This document shows positions 2 to 8,978 of a stretch of DNA of 64,000 nt, piece after piece. Origin of the DNA: Bryobacter aggregatus MPL3. Lineage in GTDB: Bacteria > Acidobacteriota > Terriglobia > Bryobacterales > Bryobacteraceae. Each line of letters begins with the position of its first letter. Position 1 is the stretch's first letter. Location of the stretch: assembly GCF_000702445.1 (NCBI RefSeq), contig NZ_JNIF01000003.1:3596001-3660000 (forward strand), in the 5' to 3' direction. The notes below the pieces were generated by a model that worked only from the letters and a program-made list of their open reading frames with translations, did not search any database and had not been told where the DNA came from. A program made the position numbers and the translations under genes.

Positions 2-373
2 ACGGTGGACCAGCGTTTGCACTATGTCAAACAGGAAGGCCAAGCCGTGTTCAAGTACGCCGTGCGCAAGATGGAAGAGGCTTCGCTCGCGGTGATTGAG
101 AAGGCGGGCTTGCAGCCCTCGGACATCAAGGTCTTGATTCCGCACCAAGCAAACATGCGGATCATCAAGGCAACGGCGGAGCGTCTGGGGCTGGGGGAAG
201 ATCGTGTGATCATCAACATCGACAAGTACGGCAATACGACGGCCGGGACGATCCCATTGGCAACCCGAGATGCTGTGGAGCAGGGCAAGTTACAGAAAGG
301 CGACTATGTGCTTTTTGTAACCGTCGGAGCCGGCTTTACGGTGGGTGCAAATATCTGGCGCTGGTCGATCTAG
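2..373 (+). CDS. fabH: 3-oxoacyl-ACP synthase III (FabH), C-terminal part
   Basis: The window opens inside this gene, so only the last 123 residues are seen. FabH condenses acetyl-CoA with malonyl-ACP to start type II fatty-acid synthesis in the cytoplasm. Two catalytic motifs are visible: the histidine in IPHQANMRI and the asparagine in [14 protein letters not shown]. With the upstream cysteine, which lies outside the window, these form the Cys-His-Asn triad. The C-terminus ends in the usual GAGFTVGA strand. The next gene starts 11 bases after the stop on the same strand, so the two may be co-transcribed although their pathways are unrelated. Confidence 0.93.
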
Positions 374-383
374 AATAGAATTG

Positions 384-1229
384 ATGACTTCACCAGGTCC
401 GCTCGAAAATCTTGATCAGTGGGACGATCATGTGCGTTCCCGTTACCAGGAGGGACGGAAGCAAGAAGACTTCCGTGTCTTCAACGAATCTTCACCGCAA
501 GGGGTGAAGGATTTCTACATGCTGAACCATCGTCACCAGACGCATGCGTTCGCAAAGGCCAAGCGCGCTCAGTATGAGAACCGCAACATGGGGGAGCGCG
601 GGTTGTGGGAGATGATGGACTTCCTCAACACGTTGGTTGATGATTCCGATCCCGATACCGACCTTTCGCAGACCGAGCACAACCTGCAGACGGCTGAGGC
701 GATTCGCGCCGACGGCCATCCGCGCTGGATGCAGTTGACGGGCCTGATCCATGATTGCGGCAAGGTGCTGTGCAGCTATGGCGAGCCGCAATGGGCTGTG
801 GTGGGCGATACGTTCCCGACCGGTTGTGCGTGGGATCCGTCGATTGTGTTTCACGAATACTTCGCATGGAACCCTGATGCTTCGATCCCGGCTTACCAGA
901 CCGTGAACGGAGTGTACGAGCCTGGGTGTGGTCTGGAGAAGGTCCACATGAGCTATGGGCACGATGAGTATCTGTACCATGTGCTGCGCGACTATCTGCC
1001 GGATGAAGCGTTGTATGCGATCCGCTATCACTCCTGCTATCCGATTCATCGTGCGGGCGCCTACGATCACCTCATGAACGACAAGGATCGTGCGATGTTC
1101 GAGTGGGTGAAGAAATTCAACCAGTACGATCTCTATTCGAAGGGCCACAATAAGCCGGATGAGAAGGCGCTGCGGCCTTACTACTCCGAACTGATTGCGG
1201 AATTCTTCCCGGATAAGATTCGCTGGTAG
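384..1229 (+). CDS. Inositol oxygenase (MIOX family)
   Basis: A 281-residue protein of the usual MIOX length. The family uses a di-iron centre to cleave myo-inositol with O2 to D-glucuronate. Iron ligands expected for the family are visible in order: TEHNLQTAE, the HD of LIHDCGKVL, the histidine of YGHDEY, the histidine of RYHSCYP and the aspartate of NQYDLYSK. The signature GEPQWAVVGDTFP is complete. I start at the ATG at 384, after the fabH stop; an in-frame upstream start would overlap fabH and adds residues the family lacks. No inositol transporter or glucuronate gene lies next to it. The family is best known from eukaryotes, and bacterial members are sporadic. Confidence 0.93.
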   Translation: MTSPGPLENLDQWDDHVRSRYQEGRKQEDFRVFNESSPQGVKDFYMLNHRHQTHAFAKAKRAQYENRNMGERGLWEMMDFLNTLVDDSDPDTDLSQTEHNLQTAEAIRADGHPRWMQLTGLIHDCGKVLCSYGEPQWAVVGDTFPTGCAWDPSIVFHEYFAWNPDASIPAYQTVNGVYEPGCGLEKVHMSYGHDEYLYHVLRDYLPDEALYAIRYHSCYPIHRAGAYDHLMNDKDRAMFEWVKKFNQYDLYSKGHNKPDEKALRPYYSELIAEFFPDKIRW

Positions 1230-2202: not shown

Positions 2203-3368
2203 GCTGCGTAGGCAGCCTTGGCAGCAGGGAGGGCACTGGCCTTCGGTGTAAAGCCGGAGGCGCGGAGCGCTTCTTCGAACTTCTCCAGCAGGAAGAGCGT
2301 ATCCTTTTCGGTGGCGAGGACACCCATCAGACCAATGCGGAAGACCTTGCCAGCAAGCTCGCCAAAACCACCGGCGATTTCGATGCCGTAATTTTCCATG
2401 AGGTACTTGCGTACGTCCATGTCGGTGACCCCAGCAGGGACCTTCGGCGTCATGAGGTTCCAGAGCTGATGGCCGCGATGGACGTGCATTTCCATACCCA
2501 TGGCTTCGATGCCGGCAACGAAGGCGTTGCGGTTCTTGCGATGACGTTCAAAACGCTTTTCGAGACCTTCGTCGGCGATGTTCGCCAGGCCTTCGTGGAG
2601 GGCGTAGAACATCGTGATCGGCGCGGTGTGGTGGTAGCGCTTGGCGCCGCCAAAGTATTCGCTCAACAGCTTGAGGTCGAAGTACCAGGTCGGGATGAGG
2701 CTCTTTCGTTCCTTGGTGAGCCAGTTGAGGGCGCGGGGGCTGACGGTGAGCGGGGAGAGTCCCGGAGGGCAACCCATGCCCTTCTGCGAGCAACTGAAGG
2801 CAATGTCGATGCCGGTTTGGTCGAGGTTGATGGGCATCGAGCCGAGCGCGGTGACACAGTCGGCAATGACCAAGGCGCCAACTTCGTGCGCGGCTTCACA
2901 AAGGGCCGTGCCATCGGTCCAGCAACCGGTGGAGGTTTCAGCAGCAACGTAGGCAACTGTGTTGGGTTTCTCGCGGAGGATGGCTTCGCGTTGTTCCTCC
3001 GGGGTCCAGGTTTCACCCCAGGGTTTTTCGATGCGGATGACTTCGGCGCGCTGGCGCTTGCCCATTTCGGTCAAACGGTCGCAGAAAAAGCCGTTGGCGA
3101 AGACGAGAAACTTGGAACCGGGTTCGACAAAGTTTGCGACTGCCGTTTCCATCCCACCCGAACCGGTAGCGGACATTGCCACCGTGAATTCATTTGCAGT
3201 CCCAAAGCATGTGTTGAGGCCGGTCTTGACTGCCTGGGTGATCTCGAAGAAGAACGGGTCCAGGTGGCCGACAATGGACTTTGACATGGCGTCATAGACG
3301 CGCGGCTCGACCATGGACGGTCCAGGTCCATAGAGGAGACGCTTGGGTGGATTTAGAGTGGAAAGCAT
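2199..3368 (-). CDS. Class V PLP-dependent aminotransferase (alanine/serine-glyoxylate type)
   Basis: A 389-residue enzyme of the AGXT-like branch of fold-type I aminotransferases. The N-terminal LYGPGPSMVEPRV and HLDPFF motifs, the cofactor-binding region SATGSGGMETAV, the DCVTALGSMP aspartate segment and the PLP lysine in SCSQKGMGCPPGL are all present. The family moves an amino group from alanine or serine to glyoxylate; the exact donor cannot be read from sequence. It overlaps the downstream TonB_C-Sel1 gene by four bases. Its start lies only four bases from the likely start of hrpB on the other strand, so each promoter must reach into the other gene. Confidence 0.9.
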   Translation of the reverse strand: MLSTLNPPKRLLYGPGPSMVEPRVYDAMSKSIVGHLDPFFFEITQAVKTGLNTCFGTANEFTVAMSATGSGGMETAVANFVEPGSKFLVFANGFFCDRLTEMGKRQRAEVIRIEKPWGETWTPEEQREAILREKPNTVAYVAAETSTGCWTDGTALCEAAHEVGALVIADCVTALGSMPINLDQTGIDIAFSCSQKGMGCPPGLSPLTVSPRALNWLTKERKSLIPTWYFDLKLLSEYFGGAKRYHHTAPITMFYALHEGLANIADEGLEKRFERHRKNRNAFVAGIEAMGMEMHVHRGHQLWNLMTPKVPAGVTDMDVRKYLMENYGIEIAGGFGELAGKVFRIGLMGVLATEKDTLFLLEKFEEALRASGFTPKASALPAAKAAYAA

Positions 3369-3372
3369 AACC

Positions 3373-5589
3373 TTGATTCTACCGATTGACCAGATCCTCC
3401 CTCAAATCCCGTCTTCCGGAAACCTCGTAATCGAGGCTGCGCCGGGTGCGGGGAAGACAACCCGAGTGCCGGCGGCGCTGTCCGGCAATGTTCTTGTCCT
3501 GGAGCCGCGGCGGCTGGCGGCGCGGCTGGCGGCGCGGCGTGTGGCCTCTGAACGGGGCGAACGCATTGGCGAAAGCGTCGGCTACCAGGTTCGTTTCGAA
3601 GATGTGAGCTCGCCTCGGACGCGCTTGCGCTATCTGACGGAAGGAGTTCTCAACCGGCGGCTTGCCTCCGATCCGATGCTGCGGGGCGTTGATGCCGTGG
3701 TTCTCGATGAGTTTCATGAGCGGCACCTCGAGGGGGATCTGGCGCTTGCGTTGCTGCTCGAGTTGCAACGCCGCTATCGGCCGGAATTGCGCATTGTCGT
3801 GATGTCGGCCACTCTGGATGCGGCTCCGATTGCGGCCCATCTTGGGAATTGCCCGATTTTGCGCAGCGAAGGGCGCTTGTTTCCACTCGAAGTGGTTTAT
3901 ACCCCCGAGAGTGCCCAGCCACTCGAGGAGCGCGTGGCGGCGGCACTGGCGAAGGCAAAGGGGGATGCGCTGATCTTTCTTCCGGGCGCCGCAGAGATCC
4001 GGCGGGCGATCGAGGCTTGCCGCCGTCTGGATCGCCTGCTGCTGCCCCTGTATGGAGATTTGAGCCAGGAGGAGCAGGATCTGGCGCTGGAGAAGAGTTC
4101 CCGGCCGAAAGCGATCTTTGCCACGAATATCGCCGAGAGCTCAATCACCATCGAGGGCATTTCCACCGTGATCGATAGTGGGCTGGCTCGTGTGGCTTCC
4201 GATTCGAGGAACACCGGGTTGCCGCAGTTGAGCTTGCAGAAAATCTCACGGGCTTCGGCGATTCAGCGGGCGGGACGTGCGGCGCGTACGGGGCCAGGAC
4301 TCTGCATCCGTCTTTATTCGGAGCATGATTTTGTGAATCGTGCGGAGCGGGCGACTCCTGAGATCGAGAGCCGGGAACTGAGTGGTTTATTGCTGCAGTT
4401 GCGTGCAATGGGGCATTCCGATGCCTCGCTATTGCCCTGGATGACGCCGCCTCGTCCGGATGACCTGCGGCGTGCGGAATCGCTTCTGGACGAATTGGGG
4501 GCGCGGGGCAAAATGGCCGAGCGGATGGCTGCGATGCCAGTGCATCCACGGCTGGCCCGGATGCTGATTGAGTCAAGCGAGCGAAGTGCGGCAACGCCAG
4601 CGGCGCGCGTTGCTGCCCTGCTTTCGAGTGGGGAGAGGATGCAGAACGCAGATCTGATCCATAATGCGGAGCGACCCTTGAGCTCGAATGCGGAACGAAT
4701 CGCGAAACAGTTGGAGCGGCAAGTGGGGCGCTCGCAGGGCCGGGATTGGGAACGGGCGCTTGCGGAGTCAATCTTGTCGGCCTATCCGGACCGCGTGGCG
4801 AAGCGGCGCCGCGAGGATGAGTATGAAGTGGCCGGTGGCGTGAGGCTGCGCTTGCAATCGCCGAAGCCGCCGGAGTGGATTGTGGCTGTCGATACCGATC
4901 AGAAATTTGTACGAGCGGCTTGTCCGATTGAGCCGGATTGGTTGCTCGAATTGTTTCCGGATTCGGTGACGGCGGTGGATCGCTATGTCTGGAATCGCGC
5001 GAGTGAGCGTGTGGAGCAGCATAGCGCGATCGAGTTTCATGGACTGGCGCTTGAGGCGAGTGTGGAGCCGCGGCCGATGTCGGAAGAGGCTTCCGAGGTT
5101 TTACGCGAAAAGGTAAGAGAGGCGGGTTGGAGGCGCTTTGTCGATGTGCCGGAGATGGAGGCGCTGCTGGCGCGAGCTGCTTTTGGGGGGATTCCTTTTG
5201 GGGAGCAGGAGGTGCTGGAACAGTTGCTCGCGCTTTGCGAGGGCTATAACGGCTTCGATCAGATTCGAGCCGCGGCTGCGTATCAGGTCTGGGTGGAGCC
5301 TGCGGTGCTGGATCGCGCGGCTCCGGCTCGGATTCAGTTGCCGGGGGGACGGAGTGTCCGTGTGAACTATGTGCCGAATCAGACACCGTGGATCGAGAGC
5401 CGGTTGCAGGACTTTTGGGGAATGACCGAGACGCCGAAGGTCGGCGGCGTCCCGGTTCTTGTTCACTTACTTGCTCCTAACAAACGTGCTGTGCAGATGA
5501 CGCAGGATCTGGGGAGCTTCTGGACGAAGCTGTATCCGGAATTGCGCCAGCAACTAAGCCGACGCTACCCGAAGCATAGCTGGCCGTAA
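3373..5589 (+). CDS. hrpB: ATP-dependent helicase HrpB
   Basis: A DEAH-family RNA helicase of about 738 residues (family members are near 800). Visible motifs are Walker A in EAAPGAGKTTRVP, DEFHERHLEGD as motif II, VMSATLD as motif III, IFATNIAESSITIEG as motif V and QRAGRAARTGPG as motif VI. The HrpB-specific C-terminal region follows. I place the start at TTG 3373, giving the usual LPIDQILP opening. GTG 3358 and TTG 3343 are in-frame alternatives that would overlap the divergent aminotransferase gene. The 3' end overlaps the convergent PEP-CTERM gene by 36 bases. The cellular role of HrpB is not well defined in the family. Confidence 0.93.
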   Translation: MILPIDQILPQIPSSGNLVIEAAPGAGKTTRVPAALSGNVLVLEPRRLAARLAARRVASERGERIGESVGYQVRFEDVSSPRTRLRYLTEGVLNRRLASDPMLRGVDAVVLDEFHERHLEGDLALALLLELQRRYRPELRIVVMSATLDAAPIAAHLGNCPILRSEGRLFPLEVVYTPESAQPLEERVAAALAKAKGDALIFLPGAAEIRRAIEACRRLDRLLLPLYGDLSQEEQDLALEKSSRPKAIFATNIAESSITIEGISTVIDSGLARVASDSRNTGLPQLSLQKISRASAIQRAGRAARTGPGLCIRLYSEHDFVNRAERATPEIESRELSGLLLQLRAMGHSDASLLPWMTPPRPDDLRRAESLLDELGARGKMAERMAAMPVHPRLARMLIESSERSAATPAARVAALLSSGERMQNADLIHNAERPLSSNAERIAKQLERQVGRSQGRDWERALAESILSAYPDRVAKRRREDEYEVAGGVRLRLQSPKPPEWIVAVDTDQKFVRAACPIEPDWLLELFPDSVTAVDRYVWNRASERVEQHSAIEFHGLALEASVEPRPMSEEASEVLREKVREAGWRRFVDVPEMEALLARAAFGGIPFGEQEVLEQLLALCEGYNGFDQIRAAAAYQVWVEPAVLDRAAPARIQLPGGRSVRVNYVPNQTPWIESRLQDFWGMTETPKVGGVPVLVHLLAPNKRAVQMTQDLGSFWTKLYPELRQQLSRRYPKHSWP

Positions 5590-6120
5590 CGCGAAGAAGA
5601 TCAGTCCCGCGCCGATGAGCAGGTAAGTGCCAGGCTCAGGAATGCTGCTGACGTCGTTGACGGTGACCAGTTGGCTGGTGCTCGAATAGGCGGTTGGGGT
5701 GTCGAGACCGGCATAGAGGAAGCCGTGATCGAGATTGCTTTCGTTCATGGAGAGGAAGATCGTGGTGGCTCCGGCACTCTCCGCACGGAAAGTGAGTGTA
5801 GCCAGCAAAACTGAGTTCTGTCCGGTGTTCGTCACTTCACCGGGCAGCAGTGTGCCAGCGATGAGGTTTGCATTGAGGTACTCAAAGAAGGGCGCTGCGA
5901 CTATGATGCTTTGCAGGCTGAGCCCCAGGTTGGAAAAAGTCTGGTCGAAGCCGAAGGCGAGCAGCGATTCGTCCAATGGGGCGTCCTCAAAAGGATCTTC
6001 GACGGTGACGGTTGCGGTGAAGGTCTGGCCGACCGTAAAGGCAGAGGCCGGAAGCTGCAGGTTGAGAGTGGCAGCCGGTAAGGCGGCTGCGATCGCGAGA
6101 ATCGCAATGAGTGCTTTCAT
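5554..6120 (-). CDS. Cohesin-like PEP-CTERM surface protein
   Basis: A 188-residue secreted protein. Residues 1-17 form a signal peptide. Residues 18-150 read as a beta-rich cohesin-like domain: FTVGQTFTATVTVED, then LLAFGFDQTF and VLLATLTFRAESAGATTI, the spacing seen in cohesins. The C-terminus carries a PEP-CTERM sorting signal: IPEPGTYLLIGAGLIFFAL followed by a basic R. It lies 14 bases downstream of a secreted nuclease gene that ends in a dockerin-like module, so the two are probably co-transcribed and may bind each other; that is inference. No exosortase gene is in the window. Its 3' end overlaps hrpB, so the last residues share DNA with the helicase. Confidence 0.8.
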   Translation of the reverse strand: MKALIAILAIAAALPAATLNLQLPASAFTVGQTFTATVTVEDPFEDAPLDESLLAFGFDQTFSNLGLSLQSIIVAAPFFEYLNANLIAGTLLPGEVTNTGQNSVLLATLTFRAESAGATTIFLSMNESNLDHGFLYAGLDTPTAYSSTSQLVTVNDVSSIPEPGTYLLIGAGLIFFALRPAMLRVASA

Positions 6121-6134
6121 GATGTGTTTCCTTG

Positions 6135-8978
6135 TTAGCGGATGAAGGCGGAGTAGTAACTACTCCAGAGTTTGTAATCCGTGAGGGTGATGACTCCATC
6201 CCCATCGATATCCATGCGCCGGTCGACGCCCTCTTCGCCGGGATGCTTGCCGAGTTTGCTGCGAAGAAGATTGCCGTCGGCGGCATCGACCATGCCGTCG
6301 TCGTTGAGGTCGCCCGGGAGCGGGTTGAAGCCCATGAGGACCGGATCGTGGTCAGAGGCCCGGTAAGGACCAGCGTTGTAATAAGCGGGGTTTGTGGTGT
6401 TGTATTCGAAAACCGGGGGCTCGTCGGAGTTGATGTGCCATTCGGTGACCCCACTGACCAGTGAGAAGAAAACGGGGTTTGAGATGGCGTGGTCGAGCGA
6501 GCCGGACTGTGCACTGAAGTTGTAGGAATAGCTATTGAGGCCAAGAATATTGGTGGCGAGATTCTTGTAACCGGCAGCTTCGAGGATCCGGATAGGATCT
6601 TCCTTCGCGTAAGCATTGAAGTCGCCGAGCAGTACAAACTTACGGGTGGCTACTGGCGTGGGGTCCGCGGTGGGATTGGCGTTGATCCAGGAGAGCACGT
6701 CATTCGCTTGTGCGACGCGCGATGCGTTGGAAGGGCTTTGTCCGTCGTTCTGATCGGCATCGCCCGGCAGCGAACCGGCTGAAGCTTTTGACTTCCAGTG
6801 GTTGACGTAGACGGTGAACTGCTGCAGTTCCGGTTTTACCGCGCCAACAGGGACGAAACGCTGGGCGAGCGTGGGACGGGAGGACACTCCTGCAGGGGGG
6901 AGTCGAGAGGCAAAGGTTCCGACAGGGGCCAGCTTCAGAGGCTGATAGAGGATGCCGTTGGTGATGAGATCGGTGCCCAGCGGACCGGTGGACACAAAGG
7001 CATAGGTGCCGGGACCGGCGACGGCATTGATCGCATTCACCAGATCGGTGATGGCAACGTCGCCGTTGTTCTGCAGTTCTGTGAGGCCGATCACATCCGG
7101 GTTGAGCGCAACGATGGCAGCAACGATCTTTGCCTTCTGCTTTTGGAACTCCGTTGCGTTTGCAGCGCCACGGTTGCTGCCGCCGAAGCTGGTGAAGTAA
7201 TTGAGAACGTTCCAGCCCACCACTCGGAAGCGGCCGCCAACGGCGTCTGGAGCGGTGGTCCGGGGATTGGAAGCGGCCTGGATTGTGAGGGCTGAGGGAT
7301 TGAGCGCGAAGACGCGGTACTCGCTAAAGGAGTAGTCGACAACGGCTTCCCAGCCGGATGCTACGGTGTATCCGGCACGAAGAGTGTTGCTGGTGGCGTT
7401 CAGCCCTCCAATGGGATAGAGCGTGGGGGAGGGATCGGAAACGTTGGAGGCGTCATCGAGCAAAATGGAGCTTCGATTGTTCAGGTTCTGTTGGGTGGTG
7501 GCAGCAACACCGGGAAGGACGATCTGAGTGGGCTGATAGCTGCGGCCCAGTCCCAGCGTGAACTGTCCAAAGTGGGCGAGATCGTTGGTGCCGTTGACGG
7601 TAAGGGTCTGGGGGAAACGGACCTTCATTCCTTCATACTTTTCCCAATCCGCGACGGCGCTGAGGGGGAAGTTGATGTCGACGGCATTGACGGAACCAGC
7701 GGCGGGGCAAACCTGGATCGAAGAGATGTTGCCGATCTGTGTGCGATTGAAGGACTCGGCCACTGTACCGGCGACCCGGACTCTGGAGCCCACAGGGGCG
7801 GGAACGCCAAAGCTGTTATCGAAAATGAAGACGCCGTTCGAAGTATTGGGGTCGTTGTCGGCCTCCAGGGGAGAATCGGATTCTTGCAGGAAGAAGCCTT
7901 TGAGGTCGCTTGCCTGGAAGTTGGCCGTGACGATTCCTTCCACTTCGACGGTGGAGCCAACGATAGGGCTGGCGTTGCCTGGACCTTGGACCGTTCCGAT
8001 ATTCGTCTTGCCCGCGCCACAGGTGAGTACGGGCGGCGGAGGTTTCACGGCGAGGGCGATGGTGAAGTTGCCGGTGCGGGACTGGTCATCGCTCACGGTG
8101 CAAGGGAGATTGTAAGTTTTTGAGACGGTGTTGGCAGGCACGGTGTAGCTGCCGGGAAGACTGAAGCTGGTGCTGCCACCGATTTCGCTCAGGTTGCAGC
8201 TTGCGCTGAGGCCGGTGGAAGTGGGGTTGGCTCCAGGTGACAGGGTTGCTGCCAAGGCGACGGAGAAGCCGACCGGGACGGGATTCGGAGTGGCCGAACT
8301 GATGGCGCCCGGGTTGGTGGGCGCGCCGCAGACATTCAACGCCGTGGCGCTATTGCGGGGAGCCGCGTTGATGGCCGTAAAGTCTGTACTGTTGTTGTCC
8401 GTATCGGTGCAGCCGCCAAGTGCCCGCACTGCTGCCGTTGCATTGTTCAGTCCGGGTGCCGGAGAGGTTTCCGAGCAGCTTGCCGTGCTGCCAAAGCCAA
8501 CCAGATCAACCAGATTGGAGCCGGAGGGGCAGACGCTACCGGAGAGTGCGGTGGTCTGTTTGACGAGGGCCACGCGACCGGCGGTGGCAGACATCGGGAT
8601 GTTGCCGGTGGCGTCGGGAGTGGGGAGGTTGGTGGTGCCACCTGTGCCCTGCGCCTCCTGGACCAGATAGTATTGGCCCGGTTGCAGCAGGACGTTGGTG
8701 AGTTCGGTGACTTGCCAGGCCGAAGTGCCTGCCGCGGAGTTGTACTGGACCGACCATCCATTCAGGCTGACTGCGACCGCTCCGCGGTTGAATAGTTCGA
8801 TGAAGTCGTTCTTGTAGGTTGCCGCAGGAGTGCCAGTGTTGCCGCCCCCTCCGTAGACCTGACTGATGACAATGTTTGCTGAGCCTTGGGCGTAAAGCAT
8901 TCCGAGGGGCAGGAGCGCGAGCGAGACGAACTGAGAGAGTCGCGTTAGCATACTTACTCTGTTGAACCAAGAGTTCAT
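6135..8978 (-). CDS. Secreted ExeM/NucH-type nuclease with C-terminal dockerin-like repeats
   Basis: A 947-residue extracellular protein. After a signal peptide (ending near LGMLYAQG) come a lamin-tail domain (about 35-145; NDFIELFNRG, LNGWSVQY), an OB-fold region (about 325-440; STVEVEGIVTANF) and an endonuclease/exonuclease/phosphatase domain (about 580-880) with VGWNVLNYF, LNPDVIGLTELQN, LLGDFNAY and SDHDPVLMGF. These are the catalytic and metal motifs of the family, which degrades DNA or RNA outside the cell. The last 60 residues hold two calcium-loop repeats, DLNDDGMVDAADGN and DIDGDGVITLTDY, a dockerin type I arrangement. An internal ATG at 8954 is an alternative start and would give a more compact signal peptide. 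Confidence 0.87.
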   Translation of the reverse strand: MNSWFNRVSMLTRLSQFVSLALLPLGMLYAQGSANIVISQVYGGGGNTGTPAATYKNDFIELFNRGAVAVSLNGWSVQYNSAAGTSAWQVTELTNVLLQPGQYYLVQEAQGTGGTTNLPTPDATGNIPMSATAGRVALVKQTTALSGSVCPSGSNLVDLVGFGSTASCSETSPAPGLNNATAAVRALGGCTDTDNNSTDFTAINAAPRNSATALNVCGAPTNPGAISSATPNPVPVGFSVALAATLSPGANPTSTGLSASCNLSEIGGSTSFSLPGSYTVPANTVSKTYNLPCTVSDDQSRTGNFTIALAVKPPPPVLTCGAGKTNIGTVQGPGNASPIVGSTVEVEGIVTANFQASDLKGFFLQESDSPLEADNDPNTSNGVFIFDNSFGVPAPVGSRVRVAGTVAESFNRTQIGNISSIQVCPAAGSVNAVDINFPLSAVADWEKYEGMKVRFPQTLTVNGTNDLAHFGQFTLGLGRSYQPTQIVLPGVAATTQQNLNNRSSILLDDASNVSDPSPTLYPIGGLNATSNTLRAGYTVASGWEAVVDYSFSEYRVFALNPSALTIQAASNPRTTAPDAVGGRFRVVGWNVLNYFTSFGGSNRGAANATEFQKQKAKIVAAIVALNPDVIGLTELQNNGDVAITDLVNAINAVAGPGTYAFVSTGPLGTDLITNGILYQPLKLAPVGTFASRLPPAGVSSRPTLAQRFVPVGAVKPELQQFTVYVNHWKSKASAGSLPGDADQNDGQSPSNASRVAQANDVLSWINANPTADPTPVATRKFVLLGDFNAYAKEDPIRILEAAGYKNLATNILGLNSYSYNFSAQSGSLDHAISNPVFFSLVSGVTEWHINSDEPPVFEYNTTNPAYYNAGPYRASDHDPVLMGFNPLPGDLNDDGMVDAADGNLLRSKLGKHPGEEGVDRRMDIDGDGVITLTDYKLWSSYYSAFIR

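Follow-up and report, generated by a model that had tools for sequence, protein, structure and literature searches.

One of the closest described counterparts of the gene pair reported here is cellulosome anchoring, in which a dockerin on the cargo is bound by a cohesin on a cell-bound protein, such as a type II anchoring scaffoldin, that is attached through S-layer homology (SLH) or sortase. We analyzed a stretch of 64,000 nucleotides of Bryobacter aggregatus MPL3 (Acidobacteriota; RefSeq assembly GCF_000702445.1, contig NZ_JNIF01000003.1, positions 3,596,001 to 3,660,000), hereafter the window, which encodes an ExeM/NucH-family extracellular nuclease with a C-terminal dockerin and, 14 bases downstream, a small PEP-CTERM protein that we call the partner. 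Our comparisons make it probable that the two form an operon-like tether, in which the nuclease dockerin would be held by the neighboring exosortase-sorted monocohesin, as one case of a wider family device. The predicted division of roles, with a dockerin on the cargo and a cohesin on the cell-bound protein, is that of cellulosome anchoring, and a profile of related partners (alignment A3, described below) matches the scaffoldin cohesin 3l8q. The pair differs from a cellulosome in that each partner has one cohesin and no scaffoldin or cellulase is seen in the pair, the predicted anchor is a PEP-CTERM/exosortase tail, the cargo is a nuclease or, in other pairs, an immunoglobulin-like (Ig-like) or propeller protein, and the partner gene adjoins the cargo gene. 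Genome searches revealed neither of two cellulosome hallmarks. For a multi-cohesin scaffoldin, the Pfam cohesin search returned a single match, to a secretin-like protein, and the partner has a single cohesin-like domain; for dockerin-bearing plant-wall enzymes, the two dockerin proteins over the cut-off were the nuclease and a protein of 1019 amino acids (aa).

Cohesins and dockerins outside cellulose breakdown are described from anaerobic methanotrophic (ANME) archaea, Archaeoglobus, and Clostridium perfringens glycosidases. In the accessible part of one such report, archaeal cohesin-dockerin modules were verified to bind and were suggested to attach functional proteins to the outer cell layer, and archaea are described as being without large scaffoldins, though ANME scaffoldin-like proteins have up to five cohesins (PMC9012536). 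The Bryobacter pair differs from the non-cellulosomal modules, as far as the available portions of these sources describe them, in the adjacency of the cognate genes, the exosortase tail on the cohesin, and the presence of the same pair on one enzyme family in distant bacteria. The nuclease belongs to the family of Shewanella oneidensis ExeM and Vibrio Xds and shares their lamin-tail domain (LTD). According to the accessible part of PMC6085458, Shewanella ExeM is found with the cytoplasmic membrane, is absent from supernatants, is required for normal biofilm, and remains membrane associated after deletion of its GlyGly-type transmembrane tail. Whereas that enzyme carries its own GlyGly-type tail, the Bryobacter nuclease ends in a dockerin, and we propose that it is retained through a second protein.

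The partner resembles known substrates of the PEP-CTERM/exosortase system in having a signal peptide (by eye) and a tail composed of a PEP motif, a hydrophobic stretch, and a basic end, with an exosortase encoded in the same genome. The available portion of PMC1569441, on this system, does not contain the words cohesin, dockerin, or nuclease and assigns no docking role to PEP-CTERM proteins; that of PMC5244752, on ANME archaea, the one paper found with both dockerin and exosortase, does not link them; and PMC5900883, one of 17 papers that mention both dockerin and Acidobacteria, uses the word dockerin a single time, to label a counted category in the caption of a figure. Within the open-licence PubMed Central literature, subscription journals being outside the search, we found no paper joining dockerin and PEP-CTERM, with or without cohesin, and none with cohesin, dockerin, and "extracellular nuclease" together. 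The parts are known; as far as these searches reach, what is new is a predicted exosortase-sorted monocohesin beside a dockerin cargo, both on unlike cargos and on one nuclease family in distant bacteria.

Genes and domains of the nuclease locus

The locus consists of the following features, with coordinates given in the window:

6135..8978, minus strand: ExeM/NucH-family extracellular nuclease, 947 aa (NCBIfam NF033681, 524 bits, cut-off 300; signal peptide by eye)
8562..8888, minus strand: LTD (lamin-tail domain), nuclease residues 31-139 (PF00932, 52.8 bits, cut-off 34.3)
6324..7943, minus strand: ExeM/NucH nuclease core, nuclease residues 346-885 (NCBIfam ExeM_NucH match)
6168..6317, minus strand: C-terminal type I dockerin, nuclease residues 888-937 (PF00404, 26.7 bits, cut-off 22.9)
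6121..6134, minus strand: intergenic gap of 14 bases with AAGGA immediately before the partner ATG (ribosome-binding site by eye)
5554..6120, minus strand: partner protein, 188 aa, with a signal peptide (by eye), a predicted distant cohesin domain, and a PEP-CTERM tail
5650..6069, minus strand: predicted cohesin-related beta-sandwich region, partner residues 18-157 (cohesin-core profile, E 2.3e-6)
5584..5646, minus strand: PEP-CTERM sorting signal, partner residues 159-179 (PF07589, 24.3 bits, cut-off 20.7)

A preliminary description had proposed that the nuclease ends in a dockerin-like module with two calcium loops and that a gene for a small PEP-CTERM protein follows 14 bases downstream, and both proposals were confirmed by the two open reading frames and by the PF00404 and PF07589 matches above their cut-offs. 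Type I dockerins contain duplicated F-hand calcium loops with ligands at positions 1, 3, 5, and 12. The nuclease loops, DLNDDGMVDAAD (residues 890-901) and DIDGDGVITLTD (residues 923-934), have Asp or Asn at each of these positions, and the module matched the solved dockerin chain 2y3n_B at E 1.5e-6. The Pfam Exo_endo_phos match in the nuclease spans residues 589-877 (43.1 bits). The GlyGly form, ExeM-GG, was excluded for this enzyme by an NF033680 score of 219 bits against a cut-off of 1300 and by its dockerin C-terminus. Pfam and NCBIfam scans of the partner gave PEP-CTERM-type matches only, and promoter and terminator scans at the locus did not rise above chance level. At its 3' end, the partner gene overlaps by 36 bases (5554-5589), tail to tail, with a convergent open reading frame (3343-5589, plus strand; 748 aa) that is DEAH-box-helicase-like by eye.

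Cohesin relationship of the partner

The evidence relating the partner to cohesins comes from partners of a class of dockerins that have one Cys in loop 1 and another close to the C-terminus (class A), found in the family survey described below. Alignment A3 contains 24 class A partners and the partner from locus L060; 19 of these 25 matched Pfam Cohesin at E <=0.01 (best 4.3e-16), 16 matched PEP-CTERM, and the A3 profile found solved scaffoldin cohesins in the PDB (best 1.3e-13, 3l8q). We built a cohesin-core hidden Markov model (HMM) from the 24 class A (Cys-type) cores, with the signal and PEP tail trimmed and without any nuclease partner. This HMM detected all six nuclease partners tested, with the window partner at E 2.3e-6 and the weakest at 6e-4 (search space set to 5000; the partner in genome G510 was outside this test). 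As controls we used 27 further PEP-CTERM proteins encoded in the genome, and none scored below E 1 (best E 3.6). Comparison of the nuclease-partner subfamily with the cohesin core by hhalign gave a probability of 96.7%, and full-length A3 searched over whole genomes found the window partner at E 7.7e-16, with the signal and tail contributing to that value.

An AlphaFold2 model of the partner from six sequences had a predicted local distance difference test score (pLDDT) of 66.8 and a predicted template modeling score of 0.66. The top three VIA-align results for this model were C. perfringens cohesins (2vo8, Z 8.7; 2w1n, Z 8.3; 2jh2, Z 8.3), with root-mean-square deviations of 3.2-3.4 and 110 aligned residues. 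A single-sequence AlphaFold2 model (pLDDT 51) gave mostly Ig-like noise in Foldseek and was not used.

Several results count against a cohesin identity. The window partner did not match Pfam Cohesin (PF00963) even at E 1, nor did any of the six nuclease partners in alignment A2; a profile of the six found no solved structure among PDB sequences; and the weakest nuclease partner (G550) scored below 14 bits when this HMM was applied to untrimmed frames. Regarding the fold, other sandwiches trailed the cohesins closely (Z 8.0-8.2), with alpha-2-macroglobulin rows within 1 Z unit, on a scale where models that match nothing clearly commonly reach a top Z of 7-8, and Foldseek returned nothing at E <0.001. 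We regard the window partner as a distant cohesin, a view that draws more on the sequence profiles than on the fold. In the absence of a Pfam Cohesin match, we describe it as cohesin related and not as a Pfam cohesin. The cohesin-like character suggested in the preliminary description is thus not borne out by Pfam but is borne out by the profile of the partner's relatives with its clean controls. Lack of a cohesin fold, named there as grounds for abandoning the idea, was not borne out, although the fold match was modest.

Recurrence of dockerin/partner pairs

The B. aggregatus genome (5.75 Mb, 4 contigs) encodes one exosortase (241.9 bits) and contains 35 separate loci with a PEP-CTERM match above the cut-off (37 matches in all, two of which are copies on an 8-kb contig). 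It has two distinct Pfam-grade dockerins, in the window nuclease and in the 1019-aa protein on contig C4, which had no Pfam match at E 0.001 apart from its dockerin; a third dockerin match was partial and, at 12.4 bits, below the cut-off. The gene for a 184-aa PEP-CTERM protein lies 30 bases after the C4 dockerin gene, forming a second pair. Genome searches for an exosortase and for other dockerin proteins, as proposed in the preliminary description, were both positive, and the one additional dockerin over the cut-off also has a PEP-CTERM neighbor. By our own arithmetic (35 genes in 5.75 Mb), a PEP-CTERM gene would be expected to start on the same strand within 60 bases of a given stop with a frequency of about 2e-4. 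Since both C-terminal dockerins over the cut-off in this genome have such a neighbor, the association is far beyond chance, and a chance-neighbor reading was rejected on the strength of the second pair, the family survey, and the pairs in distant bacteria.

Contig C1 (L039, 8158 bases) holds the C4 dockerin/PEP-CTERM locus twice in mirrored copies (366-530, plus strand; 7632-7796, minus strand) and looks like a palindromic assembly product. The only Pfam-grade cohesin in the genome forms the C-terminus of a secretin resembling GspD/PilQ (named by eye; L040, 3841-6264, minus strand; C4:68000-76500), the gene for which adjoins pseudopilin-like genes. Among the matches listed, cohesins in frames of similar size were common in the family and phylum searches.

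We surveyed 200 genomes of the host's bacterial family and detected a dockerin match at E 0.002 in 69 of them (68 over the Pfam cut-off). Surroundings were read for 95 of 100 dockerin rows, after dropping the two C1 copies and three rows from a single G601 frame that was listed five times. With 23 of the 95 dockerins not C-terminal, 72 C-terminal dockerins remained, and 41 of these lie beside a PEP-CTERM or cohesin neighbor. The association depends strongly on dockerin class. Class A dockerins have a partner in 27 of 28 cases, with G506 alone lacking one: in 24, the adjacent downstream gene is positive with the cohesin HMM (23 on the same strand, one convergent), two have the partner directly upstream (G557, same strand; G490_C875, divergent), and in G490_C653 the partner is the second gene downstream. 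ExeM-type dockerins (class B) have a partner in six of nine cases. None of the 23 class C ("DVQ" type) dockerins has a PEP-CTERM neighbor, with fewer than 600 bases of downstream sequence available for two of them; weak cohesin-HMM matches without a detected PEP-CTERM-type tail lie near three (G520_C11, G573_C51, and G545). Anchoring of all family dockerins by a PEP-CTERM partner is ruled out by this class. Six of seven class D ("NDDGVVN" type) dockerins have a PEP-CTERM neighbor of another kind, and these partners (alignment A4; L117, L113, L135, L142, L170, and L171) could not be related to the cohesin HMM by profile comparison (E >=0.9). Partners accompany two of the five C-terminal dockerins outside classes A to D. 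Automatic class assignments were corrected by reading (G512 from A to C; G035, G454_C288, and G560_C249 from C to D), two regex-only partner matches were discounted (G557 downstream, G010_C516), and G557, G490_C875, and G490_C653 were added as partners; the G605 partner ends at a contig end with its tail unseen. An extra dockerin-like class ending in RCTxxNC, mostly below the Pfam cut-off, also adjoins PEP-CTERM partners (L287, L289, L290, L291, L293, and L060; outside the family, L315).

The nuclease pair itself recurs within the family. ExeM was found over the NCBIfam family cut-off in 10 of the 200 genomes, and all ten enzymes have a dockerin-like C-terminus, eight by Pfam and two by eye (G510 and G594). 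A partner gene lies beside seven of them (G000, G484, G493, G510, G531, G550, and G553).

Other cargos are diverse. In a scan of 33 of the 44 paired cargos, many of them present only in part, dockerins were matched in 28; the other domains were He_PIG Ig-like domains (9), Big_1 (3), SMP-30/Vgb propellers (2), macroglobulin MG2 (2), and several types seen once each, among them a protein combining FGE-sulfatase with a caspase-like domain. Such diverse cargo bodies with a common dockerin indicate that a dockerin/partner cassette is common to unlike cargos. Across 38 pairs from class A, class B, and the Pfam-missed class (G605, G610_C115, and G029 excluded), dockerin distances correlated with partner-core distances (Mantel r 0.70; p 5e-5, the lowest value attainable with 20,000 permutations). 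The true pairing also ranked first of 6144 within-genome swaps in the nine multi-pair genomes, with a swap mean of 0.43. This co-divergence suits a cognate specificity of dockerin and partner without proving contact.

Outside the family, we examined 80 ExeM nuclease loci from public genomes, with C-terminal types assigned by motif. Six have a dockerin-like end, and a partner was found in five: Rheinheimera sp. SA_1 (L222), R. riviphila (L227), a gammaproteobacterial metagenome-assembled genome (MAG; L228), a Colwellia MAG (L230), and Glaciecola KUL10 (L234). The sixth (L220) lacks a partner and lies in a genome in which we found no exosortase; in another locus (L241), the protein continues beyond a dockerin-like stretch, and no partner was seen. 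The gammaproteobacterial partners are 171-188 aa long, have a signal peptide, are encoded 35-109 bases downstream of the nuclease, and bear tails that by eye are PEP-CTERM-like or VPAPA/VPIPT-like. The family cohesin HMM detected the L222, L227, L228, and L230 partners at E ~1e-8 (L234 was outside that test). In Rheinheimera L222, both modules exceed their Pfam cut-offs (dockerin, 24.9 bits against 22.9; cohesin, 24.4 bits against 24.1); L234 scored 25.4 for dockerin and 22.8, just below the cut-off, for cohesin, and L230 was below on both. Four of the five pair genomes have an exosortase, none being found in the L228 MAG.

Elsewhere in the phylum, 30 sampled dockerin loci outside the family contained one PEP-CTERM frame, the dockerin of which is not C-terminal. 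A search outside the family at E 1e-14, which weaker matches would escape, gave three small-frame partner-like profile matches (G426, G305, and G333). G426 is a further dockerin/PEP-CTERM pair, and G305 has no dockerin within 1.5 kb of its partner-like gene. Loci L070 and L092, also outside the family, have a dockerin gene followed by a cohesin-HMM-positive gene in which no PEP-CTERM tail was found.

ExeM enzymes with PEP-CTERM neighbors are not limited to those with dockerins. In Duganella, Rugamonas, Massilia, and relatives, 16 loci identified by motif (L178, L179, L181-L184, L186, L189, L190, L192, L194, L195, L208, L216, L218, and L225) encode ExeM with a dockerin-free C-terminal domain about 110 aa long, and in every one of them the next gene downstream encodes a PEP-CTERM protein (detected by script in 15 and by eye in L225); by eye, L187, L196, L207, and L217 have the same arrangement. 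No Pfam model matched the dockerin-free domain in two members scanned, and in two scanned loci the downstream protein is NF038129 (190 and 184 bits, cut-off 65). PEP-CTERM neighbors accompany 8 of 13 ExeM with RTX-like ends and 7 of 38 with other ends, seven loci having no readable frame. A requirement for a dockerin in every ExeM/PEP-CTERM pair is ruled out by Duganella and its relatives. The dockerin-free domain and NF038129 form a possible second, unrelated docking pair.

Explanations for the pairing

As an operon-like tether, the pair would work as follows. The partner would be exported, its PEP-CTERM tail would be processed by the genome's exosortase, and the protein would be exposed either at the outer cell surface or within the exopolysaccharide; PEP-CTERM proteins may reach this matrix rather than a membrane. 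The nuclease would be exported separately, and its C-terminal, calcium-loaded dockerin would bind the single cohesin-like domain of the partner in a presumably calcium-dependent manner. DNA would then be cut beside the cell, and the enzyme would not be lost as free protein; the benefit may be phosphorus or nucleotide capture or control of extracellular DNA in a biofilm. In the wider device, different secreted cargos would end in a dockerin, each with its own adjacent cognate cohesin-PEP-CTERM anchor. The pairing of the nuclease with its neighbor, proposed in the preliminary description, gains independent comparative support from the distant-cohesin profile, the second pair in the genome, the recurrence on unlike cargos, the pairs in Gammaproteobacteria, and the exosortase. 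The cell-surface location and the nucleic-acid scavenging suggested in that description are putative.

Besides the doubts about the cohesin identity, several findings weigh against such a tether. Because dockerin-free ExeM enzymes also have a PEP-CTERM neighbor, dockerins may not account for the whole association; ExeM with a PEP-CTERM neighbor is a broader arrangement than dockerins, reflecting either other docking pairs or an association partly of other cause. Linkage alone can make adjacent genes co-diverge, so the mirror-tree result indicates an inherited unit and not contact. Among the 30 genomes that contain a pair of class A, B, or D, 28 have an exosortase, no higher a share than in the family overall (181 of 200); none was found in the draft genomes G019 and G605, each of which has a pair. 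None of three scanned gammaproteobacterial partners reached the Pfam PEP-CTERM cut-off (L230, 18.3 against 20.7; two without a match). No partner lies beside three of the ten family ExeM (G023, G582, and G594), and an eleventh, partial ExeM (G518) is followed by a truncated partner remnant (L298). We also ran a reverse test, starting from 15 new partner-like matches in frames below 300 aa, taken from the matches listed, of which two were secretin-like (L295 and L300). A dockerin-like module was present in the next gene for five of the other 13 (L287, L289, L290, L291, and L293), leaving eight small PEP-CTERM cohesin-like genes without an intact dockerin neighbor in view. Three of the eight are at contig ends (L283, L284, and L286), and a fourth (L285) is a broken copy. 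Beside L288 there is only a fragment resembling a dockerin, in a different frame, and no dockerin-like neighbor was seen for L282, L292, or L294. Many unlinked single copies of either module, which the preliminary description regarded as telling against a dedicated pair, do occur for DVQ dockerins, secretin-like cohesins, and these eight partner-like genes, but not for Cys-type dockerins or most nuclease dockerins. The remnant in G518, the broken cohesin copy in G493 (L285), and the dockerin-like scrap upstream of the partner in G484 (L288) suggest that dockerin/partner pairs also decay.

An alternative that we consider unlikely is that the PEP-CTERM neighbor is a co-produced matrix protein and not a dockerin receptor, with the dockerin binding elsewhere, for example to the terminal cohesin of the secretin-like protein. 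The genome does have a secretin-like protein with a C-terminal cohesin; cohesins in ~800-aa frames, taken as the same secretin-like protein, are common among the matches listed; and dockerin-free ExeM in Duganella, Rugamonas, and Massilia also have a PEP-CTERM neighbor, of another family (NF038129) in the two scanned. Against this alternative, partners of this type also accompany dockerin cargos other than nucleases, Pfam Cohesin is matched by the majority of class A partners, dockerin and partner vary together within a genome, and nearly every Cys-type dockerin (27 of 28) has a partner nearby.

Far less probable is that the dockerin serves as a calcium-stabilized C-terminal cap, or pairs with itself, beside an unrelated PEP-CTERM sandwich that arrived by chance or co-transfer. 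Dockerins without nearby anchors exist, as the DVQ class demonstrates (0 of 23), and some nucleases have no partner, but this explanation is at odds with both pairs in the genome, the 41 of 72 in the family, the recurrence in Gammaproteobacteria with both Rheinheimera modules over Pfam cut-offs, and the match of the window partner to the cohesin profile, which no control protein shared. We likewise give very little credence to the partner being a periplasmic guard that keeps the nuclease inactive, or a pilot to a secretion machine, and not an outside tether. Its gene order and tight spacing would fit a guard/enzyme pair, but the partners bear a sorting tail, PEP-CTERM or similar, and a guard would be unnecessary for many cargos because these (Ig-like repeats, propellers, and macroglobulin-like proteins) are not obviously toxic enzymes.

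An operon-like tether that is one case of a wider device remains our preferred explanation. More tentatively, and with our judgment leaning slightly against it, the pairs might act as private orthogonal fasteners, with each dockerin cargo caught only by its adjacent cohesin-PEP-CTERM protein (up to four pairs mapped in one genome, G553). Beyond the cohesins, many orphan PEP-CTERM neighbors of secreted enzymes might be receptors for the C-terminal domains of those enzymes, such as NF038129 with dockerin-free ExeM and the "NDDGVVN" partners. Co-diverged natural pairs within one genome are a potential source of orthogonal fasteners for protein engineering. The roles of cohesins and dockerins outside cellulosomes, and those of PEP-CTERM proteins, are questions that have been poorly answered, and an adjacent exosortase-sorted cohesin for each cargo is one testable answer to both. 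If true, it would explain how a nuclease and large adhesin-like proteins are retained at the cell without a direct anchor of their own.

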